64,000 nucleotides of DNA, taken from assembly GCA_949130485.1 (NCBI GenBank), contig OX422184.1:5019524-5083523 (forward strand), read 5' to 3'. A program made the position numbers and the translations under genes. Below the pieces are notes generated by a model. The model searched no databases. It was not told the DNA's origin and worked only from the letters and a program-made list of their open reading frames with translations. Within the stretch, counting starts at the first letter, position 1. Every line of letters begins with the position of its first letter. This DNA is from Agelas oroides (taxonomy: Eukaryota > Porifera > Demospongiae > Agelasida > Agelasidae). Positions 24,132 to 64,000 of this stretch are shown here, in pieces.

Positions 24132-24700
24132 TGCAAACAGCAGTTGAAGGTGTGTTCTTGATGCGGTACAGAGTCCAACCCAATCCTAATACAATCTTGG
24201 TTTCAGGACAGACATACAGTGAGTATCTCATGGAACTGCATAATCACACCAATGGCATACAGGAGAAGCAACATGCTAATTCACTGCACGATTCTATCTG
24301 GGCATTTGCACTGGCACTGAACAATTCAGTGTCTGAAGGACTTGGACTTAAGAACAGCAATATGACTAGGTTAGTAGAGAAGAATCTGAGAAAAATACAC
24401 TTTTCTGGCTCTCAGGGGGGTATTGCTTTCAATGAAGAGAGGGAGGTGGTGACTGAAGTGGATATTTTTCATGTAAGAGATGGAGAAGAGATGTATGCTG
24501 GGCACTACACTCAAGTCACTAAAAACACAACAGTGCATTTGCCACCAGAGAGAATTCCAGGAGATGACTTTGTGGTTCGACTGCACTTGGCGTTTCCTAT
24601 TTCAGTATTTATTGTCACTGCAATTCTACTTGTCTTCACTTTAGTTGTCCTGATACTCTTTATCTACTACTGGAATAAGCCATACAATCATGGGGTAGCC
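24132..24700 (+). CDS. GABA-B-like class C GPCR, partial (venus-flytrap C-terminal part and first membrane helix)
   Basis: The frame opens directly at the gap with QTAVEGVFLMRYRVQPNPNT, which resembles the 'CTVDEMTEAVEG' region of GABA-B receptors. It continues with SLHDSIWAFALALNNS (compare 'YDAIWALALALN') and FSGSQGGIAFNEERE (compare 'FSGVSGHVVFD'). N-glycosylation sites NHT, NNS, NMT and NTT fit an extracellular domain. A hydrophobic helix (VFIVTAILLVFTLVVLILFI) followed by YYWNKPYNH is the first transmembrane segment, placing it in the plasma membrane. Upstream exons are lost in the gap. Downstream, the frame runs into a MITE at about 24701. I found no helices 2-7, so this may be an exon followed by a long intron or a truncated pseudogene. 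Ligand unknown. Confidence 0.75.
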
Positions 24701-24796
24701 TCCTTCCTAAGCCTCTGCCCAGATTTTTATCTTGCAGCCATGGCAAAAAAAAATCGTGGCTGAATAATCTCTGGGTAGAGGCCTGGGAATGAGTGG
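24701..24796. mobile_element. Palindromic MITE at the end of the receptor exon
   Basis: Left end TAGCCTCCTTCCTAAGCC, then TCTGCCCAGATTTTTATC. The right end, read as its complement, has CTCATTCCC, CCTCTACCCAGA and an ATT-rich arm. It belongs to the same family as the TAGCCTCATTCCCAGGC elements and resembles the intronic hairpin at 60987-61058. Its left edge coincides with the point where the receptor reading frame stops making sense. The target duplication is blurred. Confidence 0.6.
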
Positions 24797-35062: not shown

Positions 35063-35350
35063 CTGTGAACAAAGAGACAACATGTGAATCCCTGAACAGT
35101 CAAATTCTTGTCTGAAGTTTTGTGCAACAATTCAGTGCAAAATACTTCATGCCCATGAATTGGTGAACAATTCAAAAACAATGCTTCCGGAAAAGACTCG
35201 TGAAACTATAGATGGAATAACAAATGAAAGAATGGTATTATTTTAAGAGGCATACAACAATATGACAAATTTTCACAGTATTCCCACATTCCAGGCAGTG
35301 GTGTTTTTTCTACATTTGTGGCCCTTTTGGGACAAAATGTTACTAGAATC

Positions 35351-39170: not shown

Positions 39171-40994
39171 CTCATTCCCTCTTGGTCTCCTATCACGTAT
39201 TGATGCCCCACCACAGGCACCTCCTTGCTGCTGCTGTTGTTGCTGCTGCTGCATGTATATAAATACACACAAAATTTTGAATAATAAAATGAATCTGTAC
39301 CAAACACCATAATCTGGTGGACACTAAATATGAGCCTGCATTGCTACAGAAATACTTAGTAACTACACAGTCAAATGAGACAAAGCAAGGCAAGAAGGTT
39401 GAATATGATCATGGCCAGATATATGTGCAGGTTCCAAAATTGTCTGGGACCACACAATTATAAATCCTCTGACCTATATATCACTTCACTAGAATACAGT
39501 GACATATGCAATAAGTATGCCAAGCCTATTTTTATCAGTATACAAAGCTACAAGATAGTACACCCACTATAGTACCAGTATATGCGTGTAATCACTCCTT
39601 GTGGTACACCGTTACAAATAAGATGACTGCTTCACATTTCCACAGTGGGTATTCCCAAACATATAATGTGGTTGTGCAGTATAAACTCTTCACTACTATC
39701 TACAGTGGGTATTCCCAATAGCGGACTCTCCCAATACTACATTTAAAGTCAACTGAAGTGATGTCATTGACCTGATAGTAGGTAAGTAAAAGTAGAAGCT
39801 TTGCTGCTCATAACCTCCTGGCAAACAATTACTAGTATTCATATGAGTTTTAGAGGGTAACTACTTACGTGACTGGTACAAGTATTCATGCAGCACACAA
39901 ATAATGCTGTTATCGCTTGTAGGCATAATTACATAGTCTTAAATACACAGATTGGAACTATGTGGCATTAGTTTGTTCTTGATATTTTGAGGTGGTATGA
40001 CCAAAGTCACACAAGCTGTGTGAATAAGAACATGGAGGGTGGACAAGGTAGACAATATTATGCCATTAGCTGTATAGCTGATCATGCACCAAAGGGCCCA
40101 TCAGACTATCAGCAGTCAAGATTGTGGAACACACCGCACCATAACAAAACAACAACAATGGTCACTTACCTGCAACTTCCTGTGGAGTTCATTCAACTCG
40201 ACCTCCATCTCAAATATCTTTTGGTCTTTTGTCAACAGCTCTTCTTGCTTCTCATTCATGGTGGTAGTCATCTTTTGCTGAAGCTCCTCAAGCTCCATGA
40301 TTTTGGCATCTTGCATTTCTCCATTCTCCCTCAGAACATGTAGCTTCTCCAGGAGATTTACATTGTGTAATTTCACCTCTGGTAACTCCTTCCCATCCTT
40401 CTTTACCCTACACTCACTTCTAATGTGGTCCATGAGGCGATTTCGAGGAATGCTCCCCTTTGGACAGTCATTTGGGCAGGGTACGGGAAAAAATGCGCAG
40501 ATTTGCCAGTGGTTTTCGGTGACATCTTCATAGGTGCTTACATATACACGACAATAGTCACAGTCATACTTGCGGAGGGGGCAGAGAAGATCCTGGTGTT
40601 TTTTCATTAGCCTCCGGTGCATTAGCTGGCCACATTTGGTGCATGGTAAACTTGCATATCCACAGTTCACTGTATGCTCTTCAACTTTCCCGACTTCTCC
40701 CATCCATTCACAACCAGATTTCTTGTTATGACACCTGACACGAAGTGCCTTCACCTCACGCGCGATATCTACAGCAGGGGAGCTGGTGTAGGGTGCATTG
40801 CATACAGGGCAGAGTTTGGGGATCTGGAACCTTCTCCTGAGGCATGAGGAACAGAATGAGTGGCGACAGCTGGTAAGATGGGGATCTCGAACTGGATGGG
40901 AGCAAATCCCACAGCAAAGCCGATTTGGAGGGGGTTCTACGAAATCACAGTCAAATCCGCCTTGGGGAGCGATAGGAGGCGACAGATACGCCAT
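39171..40994 (-). CDS. RING and TRAF-type zinc-finger protein, exons 40170-40994 and 39171-39248
   Basis: Exon 1 starts at ATG 40994 (MAYLSPPIAPQGG) and has exactly 275 codons to a consensus donor (CAG|GTAAGT). Residues 28-65 form a C3HC4 RING finger (CGICSHPV, CRHSFCSSC, CPVCNAPY). Residues 85-200 hold TRAF-type zinc fingers (CHNKKSGCEW, H...C, PCTKCGQLM, CDYCRVYV, CPNDCPKG). Residues 230-275 form a coiled coil (MELEELQQKMTTTMNEKQEE). Exon 2 follows in phase 0 from acceptor TATACATGCAG: 26 codons with eight Gln and a basic tail, then a donor GAG|GTAAAA. The layout is that of TRAF-family E3 ligases, which scaffold cytosolic receptor signalling, but no MATH domain was found in the window. The C-terminal exon or exons remain unidentified. 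Confidence 0.82.
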
Positions 40995-44107: not shown

Positions 44108-46200
44108 AAATATTGTTCAGTTCCAGTCAGAGCAAAATTGACGGCTATTGCATTTCAGTAGTGTAGTAATACACAATGAGAGATTGATGTTCTTGCTAAA
44201 GTACCGTGATGTTTGATATATATTACAGGCTTGTATGCTGACGTAAATGTATGTCAGGAGACGGATGGGTCAGCCTAAGTCAGTGTATCACTAGCCTTGA
44301 GCATGTACCTATCTCGTTTAAAGTGTTCCAGTAAACAAAATGCAATTCAGTTTAAATGTTCAGAGGTGTACAATCCTAAGTGTTTGGCAGATGTACACTA
44401 TGCTCAAAATTGTCTAATTACGGTATTCCACAATTCCTAAATTTTTAACTTATTATGCCTAAAAGAGTACTGATTATGCTGAAATTATGCTCATGAAATA
44501 TTGGTCTGTCTTCAATATACAATAGAATGCAGACATCTGAATCTCGCTGGCGACAGCAACAAATAGTCACGCAAGCCACACATTTTGCAGAGGATGTGGC
44601 TTGCGTGACTAAGTGACAAACTCCTGCAAAACTCAGACACAGTGGACATAGATGCAAGCTGTTGATCACTGGATTTGCCGTTGGCTGAGGTAGAACTCTT
44701 GTTGTAGTCAAGTCAGCAACTAGTGACTAACGACTTTGCAAGAGCAATTGTAGCCTCTTTGTAAAATTTTATAATTTTACGTATTATGCTCCGGGTTTTA
44801 AGAATTATGTTTGCTCATTATGATCCCGGCATAATGTACACCTCCTTAGGGTTTATGCCGAGTCTTTTGCATGTCCTTGCTGTGTCCAACAGTACAAGTT
44901 CCACGTCCACAGTTTGTAGGGTTCGGGAGATATGGTCACACAGAATTACCAATGCGTACGTACCAAAACCAACACATGGGCTCGCAGTTCCAAATCTAAT
45001 GTGGATGTCACGATACTTCAACACATCCTTATAAATGCCAATCCTTGCTGTGTCCTACGGTACAAGTTCCATGTCTTTAAGTTGTAGGGTTCAGGAGATA
45101 TGGTCACACAAAATTACCAATGCGTACAGAACCATGAAACATGGTTTACTTCAAGGACTTACAGCTCCAATTGTGATGGGGATGTCACTATGCTTGAACA
45201 CGTCTTTATAAATCTCAATCTTTGCTGTATCCAATGGTACACGTTTTGTGTCTGTAGAGGGAAAGGTTCAAGAGATACAGTCACACAAATTTACCCGTGT
45301 GCATCAAAATCATGAAAAATGGTTTATTTCATGGGCTCACAGCTCCATATCTGATGGGGATGTCACAATACTTTTACATACCCTTAGAAACTTCAATCTT
45401 TGCTGCATCCAATGGTTCGAGTCTCATGTCCATAGGTGAATGTGCAATGCATGGATTATACTGCTATAAGCAGCATGACAATCACACCAATTTACGGATG
45501 AAAATCATACTATCTACTGGTATGATGATCACACCGTTTTTGGTATGATTATCAGTGGTATGAAATTCATACCGTTTTTGGTATGCCCAGTGTAAAAAGT
45601 GAAATCATACCTATTTTGGTATGAACTTCATACCGTTGTTTTTGCTGTGTAGGGTTCAGGAAATATGATTGGACAAAGCTACCCATGCACACCAAAACCA
45701 CAAAACATGGTTAACTTCACAGGCTTATAGCTCCAAATCTAATGCCCATCATGTGAGGATTTTCAGAAAGCACAGAAACAGATCTTTAATCTGGTGCAAG
45801 TCCGGTCTTGATAGCACCCTGCTATGGGCGCTTGAATCTCACCAATTTCAGCTTTTACAGCGTTCTCACAAACCGACGGGAGCAGTAACAGCGGTCTCGA
45901 GAGCTGTGTGGACCCTTGACCACCTGAAATACACATATCATAATCTTGAAGGATAGGTCGTTCGCATGAACACAGCTTGGAACAGATGGTGCTGAAAATT
46001 ATCTGCCGTCTAGCACAGCTCTTTCGTTGTACGACAACCGCATAACTCCGATTATCATAACGGATATCACCAGAAGACGTAACGTACGTATACAAAATCC
46101 GTATACCTGCACTACCTCCTCTGGAGCATGGAGTGAGTCAGCATATTAATAGGGTTAAATATGTGATTAGTTGGCGCAGCGCCATATGCAGTAGGACCAG

Positions 46201-46249
46201 TAGTCTCGTGACCAGCCGGAAAAACCTTTTCCGGCTGGTCACGAGACTA
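46201..46249. mobile_element. Minimal palindromic MITE, 49 bp, perfect 9-bp TSD
   Basis: TAGTCTCGTGACCAGCCGGA folds onto the other half with almost no loop. TAGGACCAG flanks both sides (46192-46200 and 46250-46258). It lies about 95 bases upstream of the 2A-gene start codon, i.e. in its promoter or 5' UTR region. Confidence 0.95.
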
Positions 46250-46344
46250 TAGGACCAGTAGCTCAAGATTTGTGCACGTGAGCTTGGTTCTAAAAGCGCG
46301 CGCTATACAGGAATTCAGAAAGAGGCAGCTATAAATCATCACTC

Positions 46345-46765
46345 ATGGGAATCGATATTGTTATGTGGCGAGCTCGAATTGGGCTCTTCCATATCTACCG
46401 CCCTGTCAGGGTCAAGTGGAGAAGCGACTTTCATCGGCCTGGGGCGGCCAGATGGGGAGTAGGAGAAGTTATGAACAGCACTCCTATGGTACTTCAAGGT
46501 TGCTTGGCTGTCGTCGCTCTATCGCTAATTTTGGAGCACACCTTCCGAAGTAGGGCAGCCTTCCTAAAAAAGAGCGGAGGATGTGGAAAGTTACGCTGCC
46601 CTAAGCTAAACAAGTTTGGAGCTTGCTCTATCATACGTATCATTGGAGAAAAAGGATGTGTGCTTGGTAGTACTTCAGTGTGCGTGAAAGTCGCTGCAGT
46701 AGTGCTCGCTTTAATGCTGATGGCGGGAGATGTTGAGAGGAATCCTGGACCGGAAACAAAGGAAA
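46345..46765 (+). CDS. Exon 1: leader with 2A ribosome-skipping motif
   Basis: 140 codons plus one base, ending at a consensus donor (GGAAA|GTAAGT). Residues 113-127 are hydrophobic (SVCVKVAAVVLALMLMAG) and run straight into GDVERNPGP, a perfect D-V-E-x-N-P-G-P 2A consensus; skipping would occur between G135 and P136. A second hydrophobic stretch (QGCLAVVALSLIL) follows M43. 2A motifs attached to hydrophobic leaders are known in sea urchin and other invertebrate immune-type proteins, where an unskipped leader can act as a signal sequence. They also occur at the N-terminus of some non-LTR retrotransposon ORFs. Here no endonuclease or RT follows and a splice donor comes five codons after NPGP, favouring a host gene. 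It could still be a captured retroelement leader. Confidence 0.65.
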
Positions 46766-49700
46766 GTAAGTGTAGCATTGTTTCTTGGTGGCATAGTGAA
46801 CTTTTAGTTGGAGAGATTGGGGTCCAGTCAGAGAATCATAGGATAGTAGAGTAGAAGGATATGGATGATTTCATGTACAAGCTGCGTTTAATACACATTT
46901 ATATGCGGGTATCAATGTCCCCCATGTCTGGCATGACAAGGGTGATGAGGGGGATTAACTTAGCACTCAGCATCCCTGAGGGATGGGGAGAGTGGCGAGG
47001 TTTGCCTTTTTTCATTTTACGAGTGTGTACTTCTGCCTGCGTTTGAACACAAAGTATGTGCATGTGCAGTTATTGTTCGGGCAGCACAGTGTCATTTATC
47101 ACAGGTACAAGTCCTAAAGAGATACGCAGAGTATCCTGAAAAGTGTGAAGACAACTATTAGTTATCAGCTATGTTGAAGTGCTCCATGCATGATACTGCA
47201 AATGTGGGACGAAGATCGGGGGTGGCCTCTTCATTTGTGGCGGAGTTGTGGTAGCAGTCCCTTTCCTTGGGGGATATTGTGCATCCGTAGTGGGGCATGG
47301 AAGGGGAATTGACACGTTGACACCGAGGGTGTGCCCAAGGGTGGGATTAATAGCTATAGCTATTAAAGTTACTATAAAATGCCTATGTCAAAAGTGTGGT
47401 ATTATTTTGAAATGCCACACTTATTGACCAATCAGATTAGTATTACACTTTTTTCACAGAAAAAAGTGTGATACTAGTCTGATTTGTTAACGTGAAGTGC
47501 CACGTATGCAGTTGCTATAAGCATAGATTACTAACCTAACCAGAGGAGGTTGGAAGCTGGTAATTAGTGGTATGCGCAAGGTAGCAATTATTGCTACGTG
47601 AATGACCTAATCATACGGGCTGCCATAGAGGCCCATAGTGAAAGGTGAAATCGATTTACACAAACAGCTCTCGTTTGTTTGGGGTGAAACTTGCTTAGTG
47701 GATTCTGCCAGGTGAGCTCTAGATCGACAGCTATGGCATTTTATGGCGCACAAAATTTTCCACGGGGATTCCCAAGGAAACACTCAAACACTTCGCGTAT
47801 CAGGAAGAGCTGTAGCGGAGATACACAAATTCATAGTGCTATAAACGCTTCACAATTATGTGATTGTTGGGTTGTAGTGAAGAACTGAACGACTTACATA
47901 CCGAACATACTACAATACTTGAAGTTTGCAAGAACTTTTATGTGTTGTAATCACAAAAATACATTCTGTAAGACATATATATTTAGACCTGAGCATGTAT
48001 CATCACGGTTGTTTGTCAGTGCATGGGGAGGAAGTATAAACAGCCACTCTGGCCAGTCTATGTACGTCTGACTCTGCCAATTAAACCCTGAGCAATAGTT
48101 GTGCTAATTCTGTTGGTAAGAGCTGTTGTGTCTTTGGTGGCTCACCTAAGGGGGCAAATGATCACTACTCAAAGTTAACTTTTGATTTGCTGCCTTACAG
48201 CTTTTTAACAGTCCCAAATTCTGGGTTTGATGCTCCTGTTGACCTATTTTCCAGTTACTTTCATGAAGCCAATGTTTTATTTAACACTGTTAATTGTTTC
48301 ATTGCAGAACTCAGTGATGGTGTGCTACAGGCAAGGCTTGACAGTGCAGATTCTGGCATGTGGGTCAGCCACAATGATGGCAAGATACTTTCAAGTTTTG
48401 AACTGTCCTCCCAAAGCAGCAATTCTGGATCTGCACTTAGCCAAACTAGTATCGCGAACTTCTTTGAACCCAAGTCTGGTTGTCTACCTGCTCCTGGGCC
48501 TCCGCCACGTGGCGATGGGTCTAATCTAAGGCCGAAGAAGCAGAAGAAGCATAAAAAGCATTCCGTGAGTAACCAACTGTGAGGGTTAATGTTAATGGTA
48601 CCATAGAACAGCAGAAGCATATTTAAACAGTGGCTATGTCAAAATGTTCTGGCATTGGTCAGCTATCAGCTGAGCTGAAGTACACATGGACGTGTGATCA
48701 TTGTGAACTGCTAGTGTAAATGTAGAACATTATGGGGTGAGCTTGAGCAAGCACAAAACAACACTGTTTGACTAGCTCAGTATGGCTTCACCAGTGCATT
48801 ACCAGATTATAGCAGTCTCAAATAGATGTGACCATACAAGACTAACTCCAGCATGCATGTCTTTACAGCTTGCACAGCAGGATTTAAGTCTGCCTGCCTG
48901 ATGACGATAGTTTGCTGTATAGCTATTTGATCGACCATCCCAAGAGTCCAGAAACGAGGTTAGCTGACTGTAACACACAGACTAAGTCTGTTCTCCTGCT
49001 GTTGTCTGTATGCATAATGTTTGGCTTGTCATGCATAGACCTTACTTACACGAGTAGCATAGGCATCGAAGTCACCATGCATGCTAAATACACTGCTTTC
49101 AACTTAGACAATCCATTTATTGAATCTGCCACCTTCAGCGTTCTGTAATAGCTTGGTTTGCTACACTGTTGCCAGTCCTCACACAGTCAATACTCGTGCC
49201 CCAGCTTCCCCTCTTGAATGTCTCCTGTAGCCAGTAAGTCCTGTCTTCACTCACGCTATTCGTTTTTGGAAACACTCAATCTCATGTGCTGGCTGTATCG
49301 TGAGGCCAATAGTAGCATGCAGAGTGAAAATCTTACTTATGCACACTTACCCCTTATTCTGCCAGGCTTATGTATTAAATTGTGTATCTCTAGCGCCAAG
49401 GTTGAAGTTGAACAAAAAAGCTGTATCCTACCATAACATTACATAATGTGGTGCTGTACCTTACCATAACATTACATAATGTGGTGCTGTACCTTACCAT
49501 AACATTACATAATGTGGTGCTGTAACTTACCGTAACATTACATAATGGGTCTTGGGTGCTTCTATTCATTACAAGTTGAACAATAATGCAACCAAATATG
49601 ACATGGAGTTGTTTTTGCCACCATCAGTTTATATATTGCCAGAAATGCAACAACATAGATTTCGCACTCTTTGGAAACGTCCGCTACATTTCCGTTATAC

Positions 49701-52700
49701 GTTCTTCATGTTTTAGTATGGGAACCTATGGCAGCTCAAACTCTGACTAAAGTAACGGGCTTACCTTGTACGTAAATGTGTTAATGATATATTCGCCATC
49801 TGCTATCTCTCTACTAGCCACAGATATCTACAGTGCTGGGTCCTAAGGGGCACAGAATTTGCCATTCCTGATGATATTTCTACATCCACGCACACACTGA
49901 AGTGACATAAAATTGACAGTTCAAATTTTCTGAAGTAAAAATAAACACTTTTGTAGTTCATTTTAATTTTTTTTTTTTAATGTTTGTCTGCTGGCTGTCA
50001 TGTTTTTACAGATTCTGTTCACAGAATTTGCCAAATCGGTACAAAATAGGCACAAATGTGTGCGCTAGCGTATACAATTACAGATAATTGCACATACCGT
50101 ACAATGTAAACTTCCACATTTTAATTATAACTCTGTACGCTACGGAAATAACGTGGCTGCCGCGCTATCCAAATTTCTGGCAGTGTATATTTCATGTTTA
50201 GAAATCATTAAATTACCAAAAATTAAGCACCCGGTGCGGAAATTAGCATCATTGGGTGCTTATATTTATGGGGTGCTAATAAACACATGTAATGTTATGG
50301 TAAGGTACAGTCATAGGGTATTAGGCCTAGAGTTTCTCTTTCTGCTAATTATATCGGTTTTCTAGAGCCAAAGATACAGTCAACACTTGATCGGTCATTG
50401 CCAACCCCTGCCCACCAAAGTAAACCGCTTGAATCCCCGAGAGGTTTTGCAACTTTCTACATATGCTCTATCAAGAGACTTTTGTGTTTATGTTAGTTTT
50501 TATCCTGTATAAGTATACCTAGTCGTGTCTTAGTATTGCTGTCATTAAAGGGGTGTAGGGTATGTCTTCTTTGTTTTTGGACATTTCTATGTTGTAATAA
50601 TTTACTTTTGCAGAGACAAAAATCTGCTCGAAAAGTGAGAAACCCTGCTGCTATCCAGGATACCCAGAATGCATCAACTGCTGGAGGTAAGATCATCTTC
50701 ACAGGGTGCTCCCTTTTCTTGCATAGCCAAATCTCCTTTGAAGTAGTTGTCTAAAAATGATGCTGCATCTCCAAGGCTTGGAGGTTGTAGGTAGTTAGCT
50801 ATCCTTAGAGCAACAGCCTTACTAGAGGACACATATACCATAGAGTATATGCCCCATGTTCTAGAGACATTAGAATGTAGTGAAGGTGGGAAGTGGGCAC
50901 TATATATGTAAACTGGATGATTAGACATTTAGTATCTGTCTACATTAATGTGATGTGCAAGCGAACTGTCCTTAGGTCTAGATCTCAACACTAATCCCCC
51001 ATGTTCTGTGTTCATATCTTTTCGAGAAGTAGGAACAAAGATGAAATCAGCAATTGATCGATGGTTGGTGTGACCCCACCTACCAATCTATAGGGCTTGG
51101 AACTAACATGTCCTCAAAAATTGTTGCTGATTTGTGGGTATGTATAATGAGAGGTCCTAGCAACAGGACTATTTACTCTGCGTTCATGGTTTATTTGAAT
51201 CCAGAGGTAAATTATATAATACTGGCGAAATTCAGTCAATACATTTACACAGTTATATTGCTGAGTCAGCAGTTGGTGGCTCAGTGTAGATGGACCCTAA
51301 CCTCATTCCCAGGCTCTCCCTAAAGAGGTGGAGATCTAGCCTCGTTCCCAGGCCCCGTCCGAAAAATCGGGAAAGGGGCCTGGTAGCACTTCCGTGTATT
51401 TTCTGTCGCTAATGTAAACGTCATCAAACATGTGCTACGGTAGGACACGCCTTGTTGCAACCGTTGATGTTAGCTGACTATCATGCAAATGCGTGCAAGA
51501 TGAAGCAAGAGCGAATTGAACAAGTGATGCTGTAGTATGCTATCTTCTGTGTTTATCTATCCAGCTTGGATGCACACTGTCTATACACAAATTCCGACAG
51601 ATCGTTTCAGTTGATCGGGACCCAAGCCAGTGCCAACAGACGATCAGGGAGTTTGTCTCAATAACCCGTATGGGTAAACAGTGCTCTCCGTCCACCGATC
51701 TCCTGTAAGCGCGATACCACTGCTGCACGTATGTAGGAGACACAGACGATGCTACTCTACCATATTGCATAGTCAGCACTTTTGGCCTCGTGCGTATGTG
51801 ACGGGATCACGTTCTGCGTGATTTCAATCCACAATCTGATTGGCTTCTCAAAATTTTGAGAGGTAATGGTGGACAGAAAATACACAGAAACGCTACCAGG
51901 CCCCTTTCCAGATTTTTCATACGGGGCCTGGGAATGAGGCTAGTGGAGATCTTGGTACATTTTATCACATGCATGACGTCAAGGGTAGACACGACTTAAT
52001 TATGCAAGGGTAGACTAAGCTGGGTGCCCATGCATGCACATTCAGGCACAAGCATTTTCAGGACTATTACAGTCCTCTTCTCGGGTAGATATGGCTTTAG
52101 TGTGTTACCTTCATACAGTCGGCAACATATAGTTGCCCACGTAGAACTAGTGAGTCATGTTGACAACTCGGTTAACAACGATGCTAGCTTGCAACACACA
52201 ACACATCGCGAAACTTCTTGCCATTCAGCCTGTCAGGTGCCGTGTCCAACACACTGAGAATGTATACTACACCAACCTACCTTGCTGATTAAGCCAGCAG
52301 TTTTTGTGCCATCGTAGCTATGCTTGTACTTGCCTCGATCACGAGCTCTGAATTACGTACGTGGGTTTCCGTGTGTGACCATGTGCTATTTGTTCGTGTC
52401 TACCTCGTGTCTACCCTTGATGTCATGTACATGATCAAATGTGCCAGGCTCTCCCACTCCTCCGAGGCTAGACGGACCCTTAATACATTACTTCTCAACA
52501 CTGTGCAAGATTTTGAGTGAAAATAAAGGGATGGGCCCTTGTTATGTGGTTGGTGCTTGATATGTACTCAACGTTAAAAACAGATTCCATAGGTGTTGAA
52601 AAGCTATCAGATTATACTTATAATTATGTGTTTGAGATCGATAGAATTTCTATTTCATGAGTGCTCTCTTGTATTCCATAGCATATCTGTGTTTTGCATT

Positions 52701-55700
52701 GTCAAATGTGCATTGTGTTGTGCCTTTATCAAAACAGGAAACACCAGCAGTTGCACAAATGCAATCATTAATTATAGCCTTAAATTTTACCTCATTGTTT
52801 GTGAAAGTACTATAGCTGAAAACAGCAGTTGTATGCATGTTCATGGTTTAATATATTGTGGCTGCATATCTGTTATGTTTAGAGCAAGGACAACAACCTG
52901 CTGGGACACAAGATTCAGTTGTAATGCAGGAAGCTACTGCATCAACCAGTGAAGCAACAAACGTGAGTCAGGATGAACAAAAACAGGTGCGAAAACGTCC
53001 GTGTGGCACATGTGAATCTTGCCAAAGAGAGGACTGTGGAGAGTGCAAACATTGCAAGTGAGTCTTAGCAGTAATGTCATTGACTACTCTGCATATACAT
53101 ACGTAATAATCCAGTGGCCTTTTTTATAGGGACAAATCAAAATTTGGAGGAGAAAACAAGCTAAAGCAACGTTGTTTGTAAGTTGACCATTTCAATATCT
53201 CAAGCATCATATTTTGATAATGTAGTGTCAACCATTATCTACCACATTTCATTCTCTGGAAGTCCTTTTTTAAACTACGGATACCTTCTATGGTCCATAT
53301 TTCACTTCTTCTGGGAGCTACGGTGCTCCAAAGCAAAAGAGCAAAACTTTCAATTTTGGAAACTTTTAGCTGCAGAGCTTGACACACACATCAAATGTGT
53401 TTACATAAAAGGACTGACTCAGCACTTGTTATGCTTCCCCTAAATTAATTAAATGTCACCCTATGTCTCCTTAGCAATATGGCTACCAACAGTCATCCCA
53501 TTCAGAAAAAGTGTTTAGCATAGTTTAGCCCTGTTTCTTGAAGTTAATTGTCCAGATGGGGTGTGAAGTAGTCTTTACTTGGATGAGGGTAGTCAACAGG
53601 CTCCACTTCCTAGCATTGTCAGGAAGATCTATAAAAACTGATTTTTGAGAGGCAACAGTGTTTAGCATAGTATAGCCACAAAACTCCCAGTTAACAGGAT
53701 TTACTGGAAAGATGGATTTGAGATAGGTTAAAGTTTTGTTTCAAGTACTTTTCTTGGAAGAAGCTTCCTGGAAGGTATGAGAGCCTTTTGCTTGAAAACT
53801 ATACCATTTTAGTGAGGTGTCATGGGTGGGTGTTCCTTTCATGATGTCATTAACCACAACGTGTACCTAGGTGAACAGTATATGGCATGCTGTCTTCATT
53901 GATCCTGGTTCACTGGCTGTATGCATGAGCAGAATATGAAATCTTACAGTTTCTCGTGGTAGAGCGCACACTACTGACATTGTTTGTGATGTCACAGATG
54001 TGCACGACAATGCCATAAATAAAACATCAGCCAGCTAGAATTCGAACCAAGTATTAGCTAGAACTTGATTAACTAGGCTTTATGGACAATGTAGCAAGTC
54101 AACTACAACTGGTTCTTCTCAGAGCCAACTCACAACTTCCTTGATCACCCTCGAAACTAGGAAGCGAGTCCTTGGAGTAAAACAGCACATTATCTGTGAT
54201 GTCACAACAGCTCTTAAGAATGGCAAGTATATAGAGAAGCTAAAACTTGCAGCACAGGCCGTGTACGTGCAAATAAAGATAAGGGATTTACTTTATGATT
54301 TGAAGTATTTCAAAAGTTTTACTCTCTTGCCTTGGAGCACTGTAGCAGTGGAAACTTGAGCCAAAGGTTCTTTTTTGTGGTTCATGACCTTGACCACGTC
54401 CATTCACTAGTAAGCGTTCAATTGTTGGGACTCTCCAACCAGTGAATGCTCCTTCTAAAATTGTCTATGGTGACCAAATAGAGCCCCTAAAAGGCAGAGG
54501 AGTGGTTTCTATGGCTGTTTGTGCAAAAAAAAAAAGAGAGAAACGGCCCAGCCAGTGCCGACCAGGACCTTCTCAGCCTGCCAAGACAGCTGCCATATTG
54601 TTCACGGCATGTTGTGACTATGCCCACCCACCTCCCCTACCCCACCCTGTTTGCTAGCACAAAATCTATCTTTCAAAATGGATTGCGCCAACTGATAACG
54701 TGCGGCCAAAGTGGCATGGCGTGTACATGCGTCATTGGTATTTAAAGGGTTAAGGAGTGTCAACAATGTAATCAGCACACCATTTTACATTATAAGGTAG
54801 CCACTAGCTATAGCTATCCCTCCGGCTTTTTTGTTGCTCGTTGTACTGGGAACAAGGCTAATAAACATGCAGTTTAGACTTCGCGTATGCCCATATCCAA
54901 GTACCGTACACGTTCAAATTGTTGTGGGAATAATATGCACTCCACACTAATGCACATAGTGCTTGTCATTTCACTTTCACGAACACAGACCTACCAGCAA
55001 CAAAGGGGAAAATTTATCCACCGAGAAATCTTCAGCGTATGCGGTAGTTGACTTTACAAAAATCGTGCATTGTGCAGCTGAAACTTGTGGAGAATAAAAC
55101 AGCTTTGGTCCCTATCAGATACACAAACGCCATGTTATTGATGCGTATAAAACTGCCTTCCCCCCCCTTTACTTTCCCAAGTTACTGAACCACATTCATG
55201 TGACCAGCGTTTCAGCCGTTCAATCTTGGTATGTCTGCCATGAGAGTACATTCAACTATTTTGGACAATTTTACAGATGGGGCCACACTTACTAAATTGC
55301 CGGACGCAAAGCCACTTAAGTTGGTTGGTTGTTATTCTCCTCATGTAAAAAGTCCTTTATAAGGCAATTTGGTGCAAAAGGAAACTTCCACTTATATATA
55401 ACTAAGTCTCTTCAGATTCATAGGTTCTGTACAGCACTAATCACATCAGTTCAAAGTTCACAGAGAGTATTCCATAACCTTAATGTAGCCTCATTCCCAG
55501 GCTTCTGGGGAGAAGCTTGGCAATGAAGCTTCCTTAAAGAAGTTTGGGGACTTGTCTAAGTAGCTAACTGGGGGAGGGATGAATAAGCTGACTTATTATA
55601 TTGTACACTGCTGTGTAGGTGGTTGCTAACATTATTCATGTACAATAAATCTACTACAAACCCACAACTTCCTGCTAGTGATGTGACAGTGATGGTGTAT

Positions 55701-58700
55701 TAATAATGCCAGAGTGCAATGACTCACAGATATTACACTATGTATTGATTTTGTTTACCAGCATTCTTGAATATGGATACAATTGTTATCGGTGTCCTTA
55801 AAACGCTTTTCAAAGATATTGACTGGCAGGGATTACAAGACCAACGTTTTTTTTTTTTTACCTTTTCCCAACATTGGTGCATGGAAGTAGCTAGTAACAA
55901 GCTATGTGGCTAGTGGAGTTCAGTGTTGCCGGGCTGAACATATTAGCTCACTTGTTGTCCTTCTGGAGATTACTGGGCATGTAAGTAGTACTAATTACCG
56001 ATATTTTTTCATTTATCACAGAAAAAGAACGTGTTTACATCCAGTATTTGCTCAAGTAAGGAGATCAACAAGTGCAGGTTTGTTAAATGTTTCCTTTTAG
56101 CCTTATATAACCACATTTTACAGAGTCAAGCAAAGGCACTATACGGACACTTATGACTAGAGGTGAACTTTTTGTTTGTGTGTTCAATTCAAAGATGATC
56201 TCAGTGACAGGTGAGTTTAGTCTAGAAGGTTGCCCTTGAGATTCAAGTGAGTATTCAGGCATGAATTTACTCAACACTTTCATCTTGAATAGCAAGACAT
56301 GCCTTCGTGCAATAGCTAGGCAGCCTTTTTGTTGGGGAGCAACAAGGTGTGAGCATACACATACAAAACCAGATTATCAAACAGGATCATCTCATTTCGC
56401 CTTACTCTTGTTTTGCCTAACTAAAAAATAATTTGTGTCATTTCGCCTACTCAACAAATAACTGCAGAAAACAACAAGCAGTTGCAGAAATGTTTACAGA
56501 TAGAGCACTACAATGGGGGAGAAATCTAGGTGCACCACTGCAAGAATAAGTTGGTTGTTTTAACCATAGAGTGGTTACCTTGGTTACAGACAAACTGGAG
56601 AGACAGTGGCTATGAGAGGTTTGCTTTGCTATTCAGGACTAATTACATAAGGCAACCCAATAGGCAGCTGCCCACTTCCTCTTACAACCACAATACACTA
56701 GCTGACAACCCTCAGAACACTTGTGAAGGTCGCAAGCAGGTGATTCCCTCACAGATGTTCTGAGGGTTGTCAGCTAGTGTATTGTGGTTGTAAGAGGAAG
56801 TGGACAGCTGCCTATTGGGTTGCCTTATGCAATTAGTCTTCAATAGCAAAGCAAACCTCTCATAGCCACTGTCTCTCCAGTTTGTCTGTAACCAGGGTAA
56901 CCACTCTGTGGTTAAAACAACCAACTTGTTCTTGCAGTGAGTTCTTGTACCTTCTCTTTCGGGAAAGTAAAAGTCCACTGATATAAAATGTGAGCTTTGT
57001 CAGTAGAAATTCACTTCATCCTCTGATGTAGTTACTCCACCACTACAACCAACACCTGCTCTCTGCACTCCTATTTTTAATGATTATTCTTCCATCTCTC
57101 CCACTTCAGCTGATCACAAACTTATATCCTTACTAAAGCTAGTGTACCAAATGTATATTGATTCATTCCTAGTTTGAGTAGGCGAAATGACACAAATTGG
57201 TCTTTTGTAGCTAGGCGAAATGAGCCTAAACCAAGACATGGGCGTAGGAAGCAAATTTGAAGTGTAGAGGCCATGCTGTACCGTGCAAAGCGCGGCGGAA
57301 AAAATGTAAAAAAAAATTCGACATGCGTAGCGCAGTGGCAAATTATTTCAAAGTATGCACCTTTAGACTGCAAAATAAAGCCTTTTTTCATGGGTATAAG
57401 CTTTCAGACCTTCCAAACCGTCCAGTAAAATATTTTCGAAAGCAGTAAGATTATACGTACTGACTTTGTCGTCGTTTCCAGGAGACCTCCCAGCTTTCGT
57501 CGCTTGTAGTAGTCTCTCTGAAAATGTGCATTAGCCTCGTACCAAGCCATCTCACCGCCAAGATTTTGATCGCTTTATAGTGTACTTTAAGAGGAAATGT
57601 ACGCATGTAACTGCATATGAGACTGGTGCAACTGCTTGAGGTTGGCTCGTTCCCAGGGAACGAGGGTAGCTTTAGCATTATAGCAGGTTGTGAATATTAA
57701 TTTGCGGCCTAAAAAGTGTAGCGACCAAAGCCGCTACGGCCGCTATGGTTCCTACGCCACTGCAAGAGGCTTGACATAGCACCACTTTTCTAGGCTTGTT
57801 GGTAAACGAGATCTTTATTCACAGACTAAGTGAAGCATGGCAATAAAAAAGATGCAGCTACATACATGTACCCTCTTCTGGCCTGTGTATTCATTCTGTA
57901 ACCATTATGTCATGCTTAATTCTTTTTGGTTGAATACTGTAAAATTTTGTACAAAAGGAACATTTTTACATGTACAAATTGGTTAGAGAATGTAAATCAC
58001 TGAATACCATAAACTCTGGTTATTAAGTGCACCTTGCTATAGGCACATATTATTTATTTGTTGCAAGCTTCCTTAATGGTATACGGTACCCAAGCCAATG
58101 AATTTCAATAGCGCCATTATGGTCACCTGACCTCATTAATTATTCATGATCAGAATCTGCCCGATTCAGGATTCCAGGTTGTCCTACCTTAATTGCAGCC
58201 ATACTGCTTATAGAGAACTTGCTTGATATTAATTGTGCAAGGCTTCACAAGACAGTTACGTAGGTGGATAGGACTCTTGCATATTTTGACACAGTCCCTA
58301 GCCGTACGATTTACACCAACCTTCAAAATAGGTTTCATTATATCACTGGATGCCAGAAATGCCATCTCACTGCACTTGCACCTAAACACATTTCCACTGT
58401 GTATGAATAATACTTTCATTTTTACATGTACAAATCAATTAGGGTAAGAAGGGTGTAGGAATTAATAGGGGATACGAATTATTAGAAATTTCATCGTAAC
58501 TTTAATTTATCTCGTCATATTACAGACAGTAATAAGTAGTTTCTACCTTTGAGCTGCACACTTGTAGGCAGTAGTATTAAAAGTAAAATCCACAAGACTT
58601 ATGTAGCTTATCCTCAAATGTTTATATCTGTCTTACCTATTCAAGGTCAGGTGATGACCAATTACTTGTGTGTCAGTTTTTTTTTTAACACTCAACATCC

Positions 58701-61507
58701 ATTTTCTGTTTGACAGTTGGGGTCTTACACTTCTTGAGTTTGTGGTCTTACACTTCTTGAGTTTGTGGTCAGGCTGTTCTGTTTTTAGACAAATGCTGAA
58801 GCTGATAGTTTTGTATAGGTCAAGGAAGTGAAACTTTGTCAAAGCAAAGCTGGTATGGCTTAAAATATATGGAAGTATGATGTGCATTATTTCTGTCTGA
58901 AATTATATCTAGTGTGTAAATTCTTTAGGGACAAACAGAATATTTGAAAAAGCAATGAAAGAGGGTTATGTTACCATCTATGCAACAAAATGTGCTATCA
59001 CTGGCCCTCCTGGTTCAGGTAAGTCGAACCTTCGATCACTTATTCTCAATGAGGAACGTCCTACAATACGTCAAAGCACTCCTGTTGCAACTGAAGCCAC
59101 ACAAGCAACACCAGATTTTATTCCATCTATTCAAGAAGATATGGTAGTAGCTGGTCAGAATGATGGAAAATGGAAGATAGTAGACAGTGATGAGATGAAG
59201 CAGTTAGTGGCCAGTTGGGTAAAGGCACGAAAGTATCAGATGGATGGGGAAGATGATGTGCAGGCCAAAACTACTAGTACCAACAGTGGGGAAGATGTTC
59301 CAATGCAACCAAAATGGAATGAAGCTGCAGAGCATGTTAGCCATAAGCCAACCATTAACCTACGCATATCAAGAGAAATCCTGCGTTTGCTAAGGAAATC
59401 ACATCACAAAGCAGATTGCTTACATGAAATGCGTTTTGTTTACCTTGTTGATACTGGGGGACAACCTCAGTTCCAAGAAGTTTTGCCAATGTTTGTTCGG
59501 AATGCATCTGTGAATCTGTTTGTTTTCAAGCTTTCTGAGAAGCTCAGTGATTGTCCAAAGTTTACTTACTACATTGGTGGGAATCCGTATTGTGAACCAA
59601 AAGAGTTACATCTTACCAACAAGGAGATTATTGAACACTCTGCACGTTCTGTGTTTTCTTGTTGTCAAACACGAGAGATAGAACATATCAGAGAAAAACC
59701 AACCCAACCAGCTGTTGTCTTGCTAGGTACATTCAAGGACCAATCAGATAGTATTGAGACATTGGAACGGAAACAAGAGATTCTATTGAAAGTTCTTGAA
59801 CCATATATTAACCAAGATGGTATTATTGGTGCTTCAAGAAAGATGATGATATTTGACATTGATGGAAGTGAGGAGGGGTGGTCAAAAAATGACAGCATCC
59901 TTACTAAGCTACGTTATGAAGTGATTATAAGAAGCGAATCCATGAAGATTGATGTTCCAATTCGGTGGTTTATGTTTCAACTTCAGCTGAAAGATTATGC
60001 CAAGCGAAAGAACTTGGATTTTGTCACACTCAAGGTCTGTTATGATATTGGGGAACATTTACAAATGGATCATGCAGATATTGATCAGGTTCTTCTCTTC
60101 CTTGACGAAGTGAACCTCATTCTCTACTACCCGGACATTCTTCATGATGTAGTGTTCTGCAATCCACAATTTCTGCTTAGGAAGGTTACAGAAATTATTG
60201 TGGCCAGTTTTCACTGTCTTGTATTGCCTGGTGACAAGTTAGGATCATACAAAGTGTTTCAAAAGGAAGGTATCTTTAGCTCCCAGTTGATAAGTGCAGC
60301 AGCATTTCAAGCAGGATATAATGAAAACTTTTCGCAGAAGGATTTGCTGTTGCTGCTGGAGGAGCTACTCATTATAGCAAAAGTTGGAGAGGACTGCTAT
60401 TTCATGCCTTGTGTCCTGCCAGTTGAACAGCCAACCTCAGATGCTAGGCACCAACTTTGTTCTGAGTCAGAGTTTGCACCGCTTGTTTTTTCATTTCCTA
60501 GTGGATACTCCCCCCGTGGACTGTTTTGTGCTTTAATTGTGTACTTGACCTCACAAAATGGATCCCATACCTGGAACATCACACCAAAACATGGTCTTGC
60601 ACGAAAAAGAAATTTGATTGAATTCGATATTCAAACAACTACCAGTAAGTCTGTAGGTACTGTAGTGATTGAAGATACACTTTCTCTTTTTGTAGTTTAT
60701 GTCTTCGGTCTTGAAGCTAACCATTGTCAAGAAATTCGACGAACTGTGTGTACTGCAATGTTACATGCAACAGAAAATCTTTATTACGACCACAACAAAA
60801 TTGACTGTGAAGTAGGCTTCTTTTGTGACAGCTCATGTGGGATAAAACCTGAACATGCTGCAGTGCAAATGGATGGAAAGGTGAAGTGCACCAAGAACCT
60901 TCGTAGGAAAGCAAAACCATTGACTAAGGAGCAGCAACCTTGGTTTGATGTTAGCACTTCAAGTTTTCAGACAGAAGGTAAGTCCCAGCCTGTGCTCAGA
61001 TTTTATCTGACAGCTGTAGAGAACAGTCTGCTGTTAGATAAAATCTGGGCAGAGGCTAGAAAAAACTGGTTAGTTTTGGTAACAGTGTATAATTAAAGTG
61101 CTGTTTGCAAATGCCCCACAGACACTGATCCAGCGGAACCATCCCTTCGTCAACTAATGGATGTTGCAGCAGTAGTATCGGTATCGTGGAAAAACATAGC
61201 TGTTCAGTTAGAGTTAAGTGCAGCTGATATTGGCCATATAGAAAAGGAAGAGGGTGGAAAAGTGGTTGACTGTTTCAGAGAAGTCTTTATTTTGTGGGAA
61301 AGGAAGGATACTCGACCATATACATGGGCTACCATGATTGCTGTATTGAAAAGTGGCTGTGTTGGTGAAAATCGGATTGCTAACAAACTAGAGATGAAGT
61401 ACTACAATTTATCCAACCAATCTGCTGAATCCAGCTTAGGAAAGCATCCAAGAGATGACTCAGATGTATCTACAGACCTACCACAAAAGCAACTAAGGCA
61501 AACCTAG
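46345..61507 (+). CDS. Predicted 2A / PIP-box / CXXC / GTPase-COR / Death protein, eight exons
   Basis: Coding exons: 46345-46765, 48308-48564, 50614-50686, 52883-53057, 53130-53177, 56022-56077, 58929-60977 and 61122-61507. All have AG/GT borders and the phases agree at every junction, giving 3465 bases and 1154 residues. Order of parts: hydrophobic leader and 2A motif (113-136), PIP box (186-193), basic tract (215-226), CXXC zinc finger (about 287-329), P-loop GTPase (369-376, DTGGQ 518-522, KD 613-614), COR-like region, Death domain (about 1035-1120). 2A skipping would release a 135-residue leader and a 1019-residue protein. The weakest junctions are exon 1 to 2 (phase only) and the donor CAG|GTTTGT of exon 6. 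If either is wrong, this is two genes: 2A-CXXC, and GTPase-Death starting near 58955. An in-frame TAA about 50 bases upstream supports the start. A TATAAA lies only about 10 bases upstream of it, so a later ATG (residue 7 or 43) is possible. Confidence 0.6.
46766..48307. other. Intron 1 of the 2A gene
   Basis: Contains a hairpin element at about 47437-47489 (CAGATTAGTATTACACTTTT / complement) and several short frames without splice support. No alternative coding exon that fits the phase was found before 48308. Confidence 0.45.
48308..48564 (+). CDS. Exon 2: PIP box and nuclear-localisation-like tract
   Basis: Follows acceptor GTTTCATTGCAG, in phase with exon 1, and ends phase 0 at CATTCC|GTGAGT. 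Residues 186-193 are QTSIANFF (48442-48465), an exact match to the PCNA-interacting consensus Q-x-x-[ILM]-x-x-[FY]-[FY], followed by EPKS. The exon ends with a Pro/Gly stretch and a basic run, RPKKQKKHKKHS (residues 215-226), typical of a nuclear localisation signal. Between them the sequence is Ser-rich and probably disordered. An alternative acceptor at 48200 opens the same frame earlier but is out of phase with exon 1. Confidence 0.65.
49432..49546. repeat. 33-bp tandem repeat, about 3.5 copies
   Basis: CATAACATTACATAATGTGG followed by TGCTGTACCTTAC is repeated three times plus a partial copy, with a few substitutions. The complement of CTGTACCTTACCATAACATT occurs once at about 50285-50307, suggesting that the block is one end of an inverted structure inside intron 2. 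Confidence 0.85.
50614..50686 (+). CDS. Exon 3: short basic linker
   Basis: 73 bases between a good acceptor (TTTACTTTTGCAG) and donor (GGAG|GTAAGA), entered in phase 0 and left in phase 1, exactly as the neighbouring exons require. The peptide RQKSARKVRNPAAIQDTQ continues the basic tract of exon 2. No domain of its own. Confidence 0.65.
51337..51942. mobile_element. Foldback element, 606 bp, perfect 9-bp TSD
   Basis: Begins TAGCCTCGTTCCCAGGCCCC and ends with the complement (GGGCCTGGGAATGAGGCTA). Inner arms include TACACGGAAGTGCTACC/complement. GTGGAGATC flanks both sides (51328-51336 and 51943-51951). It lies in intron 3 of the 2A-CXXC gene. The interior has no recognised domain. Confidence 0.93.
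51958..52442. mobile_element. Foldback element next to 51337-51942
   Basis: CATGCATGACGTCAAGGGTA plus GACACGA is mirrored at about 52404-52435 (TCGTGTCTACCCTTGATGTC). Interior non-coding. Also within intron 3. Confidence 0.65.
52883..53177 (+). CDS. Exons 4 and 5 (52883-53057, 53130-53177): CXXC zinc finger core
   Basis: The first exon gives a Gln/Thr/Ser-rich lead and then KRPCGTCESCQREDCGECK. A 72-base intron separates it from DKSKFGGENKLKQRC. The CGxCxxC...DCGxCxxC spacing and the KFGG motif are diagnostic of the CXXC domain that binds unmethylated CpG in DNMT1, KDM2, MLL and TET/CXXC4-type proteins. Seven of the eight zinc-binding cysteines are in these two exons. The KFGG loop that contacts DNA is intact, so binding competence is likely. 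Expected location: nucleus, at CpG-rich unmethylated DNA. Confidence 0.87.
55395..55475. repeat. Dispersed repeat, copy 2 (partner 160-290)
   Basis: ACTAAGTCTCTTCAGATTCA, then ACAGCACTAAT and TCAGTTCAAAGT, is similar to 160-290 in the same orientation, without about 37 bases present there. Confidence 0.5.
55486..55530. mobile_element. Short palindromic MITE, TSD 7 of 9
   Basis: TAGCCTCATTCCCAGGCTTC pairs with GAAGCTTGGCAATGAAGCT. Flanks ACCTTAATG and TCCTTAAAG agree at 7 of 9 positions. Confidence 0.65.
56022..56077 (+). CDS. Exon 6: end of CXXC finger, alternative donors
   Basis: From acceptor TTTATCACAG the frame continues LKRTCLHPVFAQ, supplying the eighth cysteine and the R of the consensus KQ.C..R.C; this fixes the exon as the true continuation. 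Two donors exist. CAA|GTAAGG after 56055 is strong and leads in phase to 56124, where SQAKALYGHL is followed by a stop (56156). CAG|GTTTGT after 56077 is weaker but is the one in phase with the GTPase exon at 58929. The choice would switch between a CXXC-only and a full-length protein. Confidence 0.7.
56391..57224. mobile_element. Foldback element with an internal 400-bp near-perfect palindrome
   Basis: Outer inverted repeats: CTCATTTCGCC, then AATTTGTGTCATTTCGCCTA and CTCA (56391-56452), are mirrored at 57173-57224. Inside, 56536-56719 is almost exactly the reverse complement of 56756-56939 (CACTGCAAGAA to CTCAGAACA), with only about 36 bases between the arms. Located in intron 6, between the CXXC and GTPase exons. 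Confidence 0.85.
58115..58200. repeat. Dispersed repeat shared with 9795-9880
   Basis: GACCTCATTAATTATTCATGA, here read up to 20 bases as GACCTCATTAATTATTCATG, followed by GTTGTCCTACCTTAA, matches the copy at 9795-9880 in order and orientation. Confidence 0.5.
58929..60977 (+). CDS. Exon 7: P-loop GTPase with COR-like region
   Basis: Walker A is GPPGSGKS (exon codons for residues 369-376) after a hydrophobic strand. A Thr-rich insertion of over 100 residues precedes FVYLVDTGGQPQFQ, the switch II/Walker B of Roc-type GTPases (DxGGQ). VVLLGTFKDQSD carries the guanine-specificity TxKD. Then come a winged-helix COR-like region (LLFLDEVNLILYYPD, VVFCNPQFLLRKVTEII, YFMPCVLP) and a C-terminal beta-rich segment (VFSFPSGYSPRGLFCALIV) with a Cys/His cluster (FFCDSSCG, H, KVKC). 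This is the ROCO/MFHAS1-like family common in invertebrates and often fused to Death domains. It is cytosolic or membrane-recruited in known members. The exon ends at a strong donor (GAAG|GTAAGT). If the upstream CXXC link is wrong, M353 (58955) is a plausible start. Confidence 0.87.
60987..61058. mobile_element. Hairpin MITE in the last intron of the 2A-CXXC-GTPase gene
   Basis: AGCCTGTGCTCAGATTTTAT plus CTGACAG and its mirror CTGTTAGATAAAATCTGGGC plus AGAGGCTA form a 72-base hairpin that fills half of the 144-base intron. It begins about ten bases after the donor. Related to the element at 24701. Confidence 0.75.
61122..61507 (+). CDS. Exon 8: Death domain
   Basis: Acceptor GCAAATGCCCCACAG is in phase with exon 7. 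The six-helix death-fold pattern is visible: LRQLMDVAAVVSVSWKNIAV, then QLELSAADIGHIEKE, CFREVFILWERK, YTWATMIAVLKS and ENRIANKLEMKY, with the conserved W after helix 1 and a second W before helix 5. A short polar tail (HPRDDSDVSTDLPQKQ) ends at TAG. Death domains oligomerise with partner death domains in apoptosis and innate-immune signalling. Placed after a ROCO-type GTPase, this would be the output module. Confidence 0.85.
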
Positions 61508-63016: not shown

Positions 63017-64000
63017 TTAAACAGTAGCTATGGCAATGCATTCAGTAATAATGTTTTTCAGGCACCTCCCGTACTTCTGTAAAGTCCTGGGGTAGCGATG
63101 CACAAAGGTCTTGTAGGTGCTACAGAGTTTTTGGTATACGTATCCCTGTCTAAGTAATCTGGTTGTGAGTAGTTTAGATCTGTAAACAAAATCTTGGTAA
63201 TTACAACATATCCTCAAATATCGAACTAACTGTGAAATTACTACTCCGTATGCTGGTTTTGAGGGTATGTTGCTATCCATGTGTGGAAAATTGACTATTG
63301 AAAAGTTGAAGGCATCCCTCTTATCATACAAGTCTGTGCAAAACTTACCATTCAGGACATTAATGTTAAGATCCAGGTAGGAACAGCTGTCATGGCTCTC
63401 TGTAGTTTTCTTAAGCTCTAATTCTGGGGGGTAAATTTGGCCTATGCATGCTTGAAAATCAGGGTTGTTAAGTGTAAGCAAGTCATCAATATATCTGCAA
63501 GTATTACTAAATTTAGCTGCTACAGAGAGGTCAGTCCGGATTAGGGATTTCATAAACTCAAATTCATAGGAGAAAAGAAATAGATCCGCAACTAATGGAG
63601 CACAATCAGTACCCATAGGGATGCCAATTGTTTGTTGGTAGACAGCTGATCCTATCTGGATGTATACGTTATCTATCAAGAAATTGAACATCTCAACTAA
63701 CTGGTTCACCGTTAAGTTACGGGTATTAGCTACAGGTCTGGAAGTCCAGTAAGCATAATCTTTTCCTAAGGCCATGTGGGAGGCATCTCTGGTATTGTAT
63801 GCATTTCTAATTAACTCTTCCATGCGTGTTTTGAGCTGACTATGGGGGATGTTAGTATAGAGTGTACTGAAATCAAAGCTATCCAATGCTCTTGCGTGTC
63901 TCAACTTTTCTAGGGTGTTAGTCACTTCAGTGGAGTTGTTAATGACCCAAAAGCAGTTTACCCCGGTTCTTCTTTCTATACCATTGCAATATTCCTTGTA
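63017..64000 (-). CDS. Reverse transcriptase of a Penelope-like element, partial
   Basis: The frame is open from the window edge to a stop at 63017. RT motifs: FDFSTLYTNIPH (motif A with catalytic D), IGIPMGTDCAPLVADLFLFS (motif B), CRYIDDLLTLNN (motif C, the YIDD catalytic pair), then PPELELKKT and SYLDLNI (motifs D-E). A His/Arg-rich C-terminus (KTFVHRYPRTLQKYGRC) follows. No GIY-YIG endonuclease is seen after the RT within this frame. The N-terminal part lies beyond base 64000. The frame has no internal stops over about 325 codons, so the copy may be young. Confidence 0.85.
   Translation of the reverse strand, partial: YKEYCNGIERRTGVNCFWVINNSTEVTNTLEKLRHARALDSFDFSTLYTNIPHSQLKTRMEELIRNAYNTRDASHMALGKDYAYWTSRPVANTRNLTVNQLVEMFNFLIDNVYIQIGSAVYQQTIGIPMGTDCAPLVADLFLFSYEFEFMKSLIRTDLSVAAKFSNTCRYIDDLLTLNNPDFQACIGQIYPPELELKKTTESHDSCSYLDLNINVLNGKFCTDLYDKRDAFNFSIVNFPHMDSNIPSKPAYGVVISQLVRYLRICCNYQDFVYRSKLLTTRLLRQGYVYQKLCSTYKTFVHRYPRTLQKYGRCLKNIITECIAIATV

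Follow-up and report, generated by a model that had tools for sequence, protein, structure and literature searches.

A candidate sponge gene, in two tandem copies, that appears to join a 2A leader, a PIP box and a CXXC finger to a ROCO-type GTPase and a Death domain

Among the closest described systems are the ROCO proteins, including LRRK1, LRRK2 and bacterial Roco, in which a Roc-like GTPase is followed by COR. DAPK1 and MFHAS1 are also ROCO proteins, and DAPK1 has a Death domain after COR. The eight-cysteine CXXC finger with KFGG and KQ is known from DNMT1, KDM2B, CFP1 and other KFGG-type CXXC proteins. Kaur and others have described AP-GTPase conflict systems of immunity, which combine a GTPase-COR switch with Death-like adaptors and with sensor and effector domains that vary (PMC8195603). 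In the sea urchin, about 35% of the NLRs (85 of 241) are reported to carry 2A-like sequences near the N-terminus, and these sequences have been shown to be active in recoding and as signal sequences (PMC4981915).

The locus considered here resembles each of these in part. Like the ROCO proteins, it appears to encode a Roc-like GTPase and then COR; like the AP-GTPase conflict systems, it would belong to a set in which a GTPase-COR switch goes with varying sensor domains and a Death-type domain (PMC8195603); and like the sea-urchin NLRs, it would place an N-terminal 2A-like sequence and a hydrophobic leader on a Death-type innate immune protein (PMC4981915). Unlike the known ROCO proteins, however, its N-terminus consists of a 2A leader, a PIP box and a CXXC finger, and unlike in DNMT1, KDM2B and CFP1, the finger is fused to a GTPase and a Death domain. 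CXXC is absent from the main text of the AP-GTPase paper (PMC8195603). In contrast to the sea-urchin NACHT-LRR proteins, the switch would be Roc-COR and the leader is a separate exon of 140 aa. Dual targeting has been shown by experiment for the sea-urchin NLRs (PMC4981915), which makes them a tested precedent.

The window is a stretch of 64,000 nucleotides of Agelas oroides DNA (C2:5019524-5083523), and the genome searched comprised 259 Mb on 141 contigs. A sequence-only reading of the window had joined eight exons with matching splice phase, from 46345 to 61507, into a single gene. When checked base by base, these exons showed GT/AG at all junctions, phases that agree and a frame of 1154 aa with a single terminal stop; the predicted structure (exons, phases and frame) is thus well supported. 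A second copy (copy B) lies at C2:5132519-5151568, 67-70 kb downstream of the window gene (copy A), and retains all eight exons in the same order and phases, with an open frame of 1160 aa. The features of copy A, in window positions, are as follows.

46045-46344, + strand: CpG-rich 5' flank, CpG observed/expected (o/e) 1.01 (0.87 for the corresponding flank of copy B), likely the promoter side
46345-46765, + strand: exon 1, leader with two hydrophobic stretches, the 2A motif at its end and a phase-1 donor
46726-46752, + strand: 2A ribosome-skipping motif GDVERNPGP, exact, with the predicted break before the last P
48308-48564, + strand: exon 2, PIP box and basic tract
48442-48465, + strand: PIP box QTSIANFF, exact (QTNIETFF in copy B)
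48529-48564, + strand: basic tract RPKKQKKHKKHS, a possible nuclear localisation signal that runs on into exon 3
50614-50686, + strand: exon 3, end of the basic tract and linker, identical in copy B
52883-53057, + strand: exon 4, linker and then the first part of the CXXC finger
53130-53177, + strand: exon 5, middle of the CXXC finger, with the KFGG motif
56022-56077, + strand: exon 6, end of the CXXC finger, donor CAG|GTTTGT
58929-60977, + strand: exon 7, ROCO (Roc-COR) GTPase core
59003-59026, + strand: P-loop GPPGSGKS, in exon 7
59450-59464, + strand: G3 motif DTGGQ, all but its T being invariant across 73 sequences
61122-61507, + strand: exon 8, Death domain, C-terminal tail and stop codon

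The splice donors of the gene match 6 to 8 of the 9 consensus bases. The exon 6 donor agrees at 7 of them; among the 3915 GT sites in the window, 2.4% reach that score. In the gene model, exon 6 ends mid-frame without a natural stop, and reading through it meets a stop a few codons into the intron. Both copies contain polyadenylation-like hexamers in intron 6, while the 900 nt that follow the stop codon of copy A have none; as evidence, these hexamers are uninformative. Intron 6 also holds a near-perfect inverted repeat, noted by eye at 56660-56870, which is probably a small transposon.

Divergence between the two copies is strikingly uneven. Exon 1 is 96.9% identical by local alignment, and from 48400 onward, where values from a global alignment were used, a tract of about 2% divergence extends through exons 3 to 6, resumes after the insert-rich part of intron 6 and takes in the first ~270 bp of exon 7. 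Past this tract, divergence rises to 10 to 18% in exon 7 and to 20% in exon 8. Synonymous divergence follows the same course: dS is 0.05 in exons 1 to 6 and again in the opening 100 codons of exon 7, and 0.28 to 0.70 in what follows. Gene conversion or unequal exchange thus seems to have homogenised the 5' module together with the beginning of the GTPase exon, as if the two moved as one block. Between copies, dN/dS is 0.28 for exon 7 and 0.58 for the fast-evolving exon 8. For exons 1 to 6 the ratio of 0.62 comes from 36 changes between copies too alike for a selection test; exons 3 to 6 differ by just 5 changes (ratio about 1.1), and their divergence of 1.4% is not clearly lower than in introns 3 to 5, where it ranges from 1.8 to 2.8%. 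Since exons 1 to 6 differ so little, a selection test on the CXXC exons would have no power.

The 2A motif of the leader named in the sequence-only reading is exact. The leader, however, is not peculiar to this gene: 84 stretches of the genome match exon 1, of which 65 measure 390 nt or more and the others are fragments, and many stand in one-strand rows on contigs C1 and C3. GDVExNPGP with a GT at the same phase-1 place was present in all 17 distinct leaders that were read (17/17, donor places by eye), and DxExNPGP is kept in 116 of 119 database leaders; the window leader itself carries D[VI]ExNPGP after a hydrophobic stretch. A Death exon lies within 6 kb after at least 36 of the 84 stretches, while an exon-7-type ROCO within 20 kb follows only two leaders, both on C2, among the matches listed. 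Downstream of the leader at one C1 locus (L033, C1:4162000-4171999) are exons for Death, ankyrin, Roc, COR-A and Ig; COR-A is over its cut-off at 43.9 bits, and Death (18.4 bits) and Roc fall below theirs. The leader matches, the exons of this locus and the nearby Death exons together indicate that the leader is a shared exon of a Death/ROCO gene family. The window gene accordingly looks like a chimera, at least in its predicted exons, in which the shared leader and a unique PIP exon are joined to CXXC and to an exon-7-type ROCO-Death body.

Two other identities for the leader family were considered and rejected. 2A leaders also occur in retrotransposons, but a transposon origin does not fit with the Death exons that follow at least 36 of the 84 stretches, and no reverse transcriptase was noticed by eye at twelve loci. 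Nor does the family appear to consist of NLR genes, as the sea-urchin precedent would suggest: the one locus followed, L033, carries Death, ankyrin, Roc, COR-A and Ig, a content that speaks for ROCO and not NLR. In the window protein, neither NACHT nor LRR was found (Pfam, E up to 1). The one-strand rows on C1 and C3 are apparently made up of 2A-Death-ankyrin-Roc-COR genes, one with a downstream Ig domain.

The PIP box named in the sequence-only reading, which lies in exon 2, is exact in both copies, each reading Qxx[ILMV]xx[FY][FY], and copy B keeps the four consensus positions while changing three of the four free ones. On the other hand, the strict pattern arose in 246 of 5000 protein shuffles (4.9%), so the box is weak taken alone. 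The exon that bears it occurs at just two places in the genome. The CXXC finger, of the CpG-binding type, has a Pfam score of 46.4 bits on the joined protein (E 4e-12, cut-off 26.5) and the eight cysteines, KFGG and KQ of the KFGG type. Its closest solved chains are KDM2B, DNMT1 and CpG-binding protein. The two copies have the same finger core, which shares 72% identity with a sponge-type CXXC protein (P0122). A PIP box, basic tract and CXXC in series are reminiscent of DNMT1 in its N-terminal half; the window protein contains no methyltransferase, demethylase, BAH or PHD domain by Pfam.

CXXC matches are abundant, at 91 places in the genome, and in a pattern check 7 of 8 loci fitted, L008 being the one that did not. 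Open frames for SWIM or OTU domains lie within 1.5 kb of CXXC at three of the eight loci (L003, L005 and L007; the OTU frame of L003 is on the opposite strand). As these recall MULE-type transposons, they hint that CXXC fingers may travel on mobile elements.

The domain search proposed for the joined protein gave a divided result. CXXC and Death were over their cut-offs, the latter as claimed, at 26.9 bits (E 5.2e-6, cut-off 22.6), but Roc reached 18.1 bits (E 0.0033) in the window protein, below its cut-off of 27, and COR was not listed by Pfam for that protein or for exon 7 of copy B (E up to 0.1); database pre-annotation does give COR for copy B exon 7. Because of this, the ROCO assignment rests on the family profile and on relatives. 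A profile of 73 homologues was compared with the PDB, and the best 14 of 41 matches were LRRK2, LRRK1 and bacterial ROCO chains at E of at most 2e-4, with a gap to the next match at E 0.011. We take the matched PDB stretch to be COR and 3dpu to be bacterial Roco. Relatives of exon 7 comprised 155 database proteins (E up to 0.001); COR (PF16095) was pre-annotated in 49 of the best 120 of these, counted by eye, and COR-A was found in all seven homologues scanned (7/7) at 2e-8 to 2.4e-6, always under the Pfam cut-off. With a P-loop and DxGGQ present, and with G25, G30, K31, D174, G176, G177 and Q178 invariant in the 73 sequences, the GTPase/COR-like core of the sequence-only reading can thus be placed in the ROCO family. 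Its G4, TFKD, departs from the usual form. No kinase domain was found in the window protein (Pfam).

The genome holds at least 65 exon-7-type ROCO loci (74 rows less 9 second pieces), and since these 65 were scored from 228 candidates, the ROCO numbers are lower bounds. At no fewer than 13 of the 65 a Death exon lies within 8 kb downstream on the same strand, a figure obtained with 75 of the 149 Death rows and again with all 149. These downstream Death exons support the joining of exons 7 and 8 as a family pattern. CXXC, by comparison, lies upstream at only 2 of the 65 scored loci.

Relatives of the GTPase are found with quite other N-termini. The nearest named ones are proteins of Amphimedon queenslandica, at 27% identity. 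LOC109584972 (P0109) and LOC109583010 (P0113) share the GTPase family and a C-terminal Death domain, but begin with ankyrin repeats and a Neuralized domain, respectively, in place of the leader, PIP box and CXXC, and a 2A leader was seen in neither. The nearest relative within the genome (C15 near 1974257; L052/L044) is preceded by matches to Death, CAP-Gly and two KH in open frames and followed by ZU5 (below cut-off); the frames are unspliced, with no joined model. Given KH there and CXXC here, two kinds of nucleic-acid-binding module precede the ROCO switch, and the C15 locus is a possible RNA-binding counterpart. In another assembly, a match to the GTPase exon (79%, P0005) and one to the leader (92% over 70%, P0129) apparently lie on one contig, suggesting the same pairing there and perhaps the same gene. 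Among viral contigs, 600 pattern matches yielded no confirmed relative.

The claim that no described protein has this domain set held within our searches. A database query with the joined protein, in which 8000 candidates were scored, listed 15 proteins (11 GTPase and 4 CXXC), none with both; as most database entries are single open frames, fusions that span introns would be missed unless deposited whole. In the literature library searched, no paper joined sponge, ROCO, death domain and CXXC, and the papers joining CXXC, unmethylated CpG, PCNA and death domain were, by title and among the matches listed, on cancer or methylation. The parts are already known, and their predicted combination is new to these searches.

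On balance, we favour a reading of the locus as one gene, in a tandem pair, for a nuclear ROCO-Death switch with the CpG finger and PCNA-docking motif as its sensor. Translation would start at the conserved MGID leader, and at the 2A motif the ribosome would usually skip the last peptide bond, leaving a small hydrophobic leader and the rest as a free protein. The basic tract could carry the released protein into the nucleus, where CXXC would bind unmethylated CpG and the PIP box would dock on PCNA, such that the protein gathers on new or foreign unmethylated DNA. This gathering might load or cluster the Roc-COR switch, which would then expose the C-terminal Death domain and recruit a death or inflammatory pathway. 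Ribosome skipping, entry into the nucleus, binding to CpG and to PCNA, and signalling are all inferred, and the role as a nuclear sensor of unmethylated DNA is a good, testable guess. Other loci of the genome, 132 kb in all, are depleted in CpG (o/e 0.36), which is what methylation would lead one to expect; the A. queenslandica genome is methylated, at 81% mCG, and methylation varies among sponges. If true, CXXC, a chromatin reader of unmethylated CpG in known proteins, would be tied directly to a death-fold switch in an early animal lineage, and animals would have a way, inside the nucleus, to distinguish their own DNA from foreign DNA by its methylation. A further idea that becomes testable is that an entire immune-like gene family of sponges makes use of 2A leaders, which have been studied in the NLRs of the sea urchin. 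A fuller version is offered tentatively: a ROCO-Death nuclear receptor that reads DNA methylation, with unmethylated CpG on CXXC and PCNA as the alarm in a genome poor in CpG of its own, 2A yielding one product for the membrane (the leader) and one for the nucleus (the sensor), and the 5' module block-swapped between neighbouring genes.

How far the favoured reading holds depends on whether the exons form one gene. One chimeric eight-exon gene, in two tandem copies, is likely from the sequence, but the junction of exon 6 to exon 7 is its weakest link, with a long intron and variable inserts. We consider it unlikely that the leader, PIP box and CXXC instead make up a short gene of their own, with ROCO and Death in a second gene that starts at or near the ATG at 58955. 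Such a split would fit with the co-occurrence of CXXC and exon-7-type ROCO at only 2 of the 65 scored ROCO loci, with the unequal divergence between copies (dS 0.05 in the 5' block versus 0.32 in the GTPase body), with the polyadenylation-like hexamers inside intron 6 and with the many database ORFs of the GTPase family that begin at the same Met (MKEGYV), although short ORFs from that Met are what any ORF caller gives. The codons 5' of the Met (FEKA), however, are kept in relatives (YEEAMKEG, LEKAMKEG, LEKGMEEG), in each copy exon 7 opens at a phase-matched acceptor, and exon 6 ends mid-frame with the intron stop within a few codons. The sequence-only reading had counted a separate promoter or start upstream of 58955 among the observations that would break up the gene, and CpG content points the other way: in the 300 bp before exon 7, CpG is nearly absent from both copies (o/e 0.00 in copy A and 0.11 in copy B), which argues against a CpG-rich second promoter there, while 17 distinct leaders of the family show the same rise at the 5' end, with 0.73 around the start versus 0.26 to 0.47 further in. 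Copy A does have a CpG-rich stretch (0.91 to 0.98) 1.2 to 1.8 kb before exon 7, mostly in a segment without a copy B counterpart. The low-divergence tract that continues from exons 3 to 6 into exon 7 also favours one gene. With a second copy, a CpG-rich 5' end at the leader only and conserved codons before 58955, all eight exons most likely form one gene, as first proposed.

A single gene need not be a sensor of foreign DNA. It is possible, if rather doubtful, that the gene encodes a regulator linked to replication or chromatin, in which CXXC and the PIP box recruit a ROCO-Death scaffold to replication forks or to promoters rich in CpG, in keeping with the DNMT1-like series of PIP box, basic tract and CXXC, with DNMT1 among the nearest solved CXXC chains and with host promoters, which also offer unmethylated CpG (leader 5' ends are themselves CpG-rich). 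Four features seen here are found more often in conflict genes: the Death domain, the tandem duplication, the exchange of blocks between copies and the rapid evolution of the Death exon. They count against such a regulator but are not decisive. That the gene is a chimera of recent origin, without a settled function and on its way to becoming a pseudogene, strikes us as very improbable: its confinement to two copies and the dN/dS of 0.62 in exons 1 to 6 would be in line with drift, but both copies keep all splice sites and the open frame, exon 7 has a dN/dS of 0.28, and the leader (92%) and GTPase exon (79%) matches in another assembly suggest the pairing there.

Around the gene, the window contains four neighbouring genes identified by Pfam.

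24134-24760, + strand: ANF-receptor ligand region protein
32263-32949, + strand: SH3 protein
34133-35083, - strand: Kelch protein
40116-40994, - strand: RING/TRAF zinc finger protein

At 63017-63925 on the minus strand lies an open frame of 302 aa that is reverse transcriptase-like by eye, with no Pfam match. Positions 14440-23928 are occupied by a satellite array whose 192-bp repeats run in two orientations, at 14440-18481 and 18624-23928 in three rows; its CpG o/e is about 1.0, versus 0.2 to 0.6 around it, and it ends at a 200-base gap (23932-24131).
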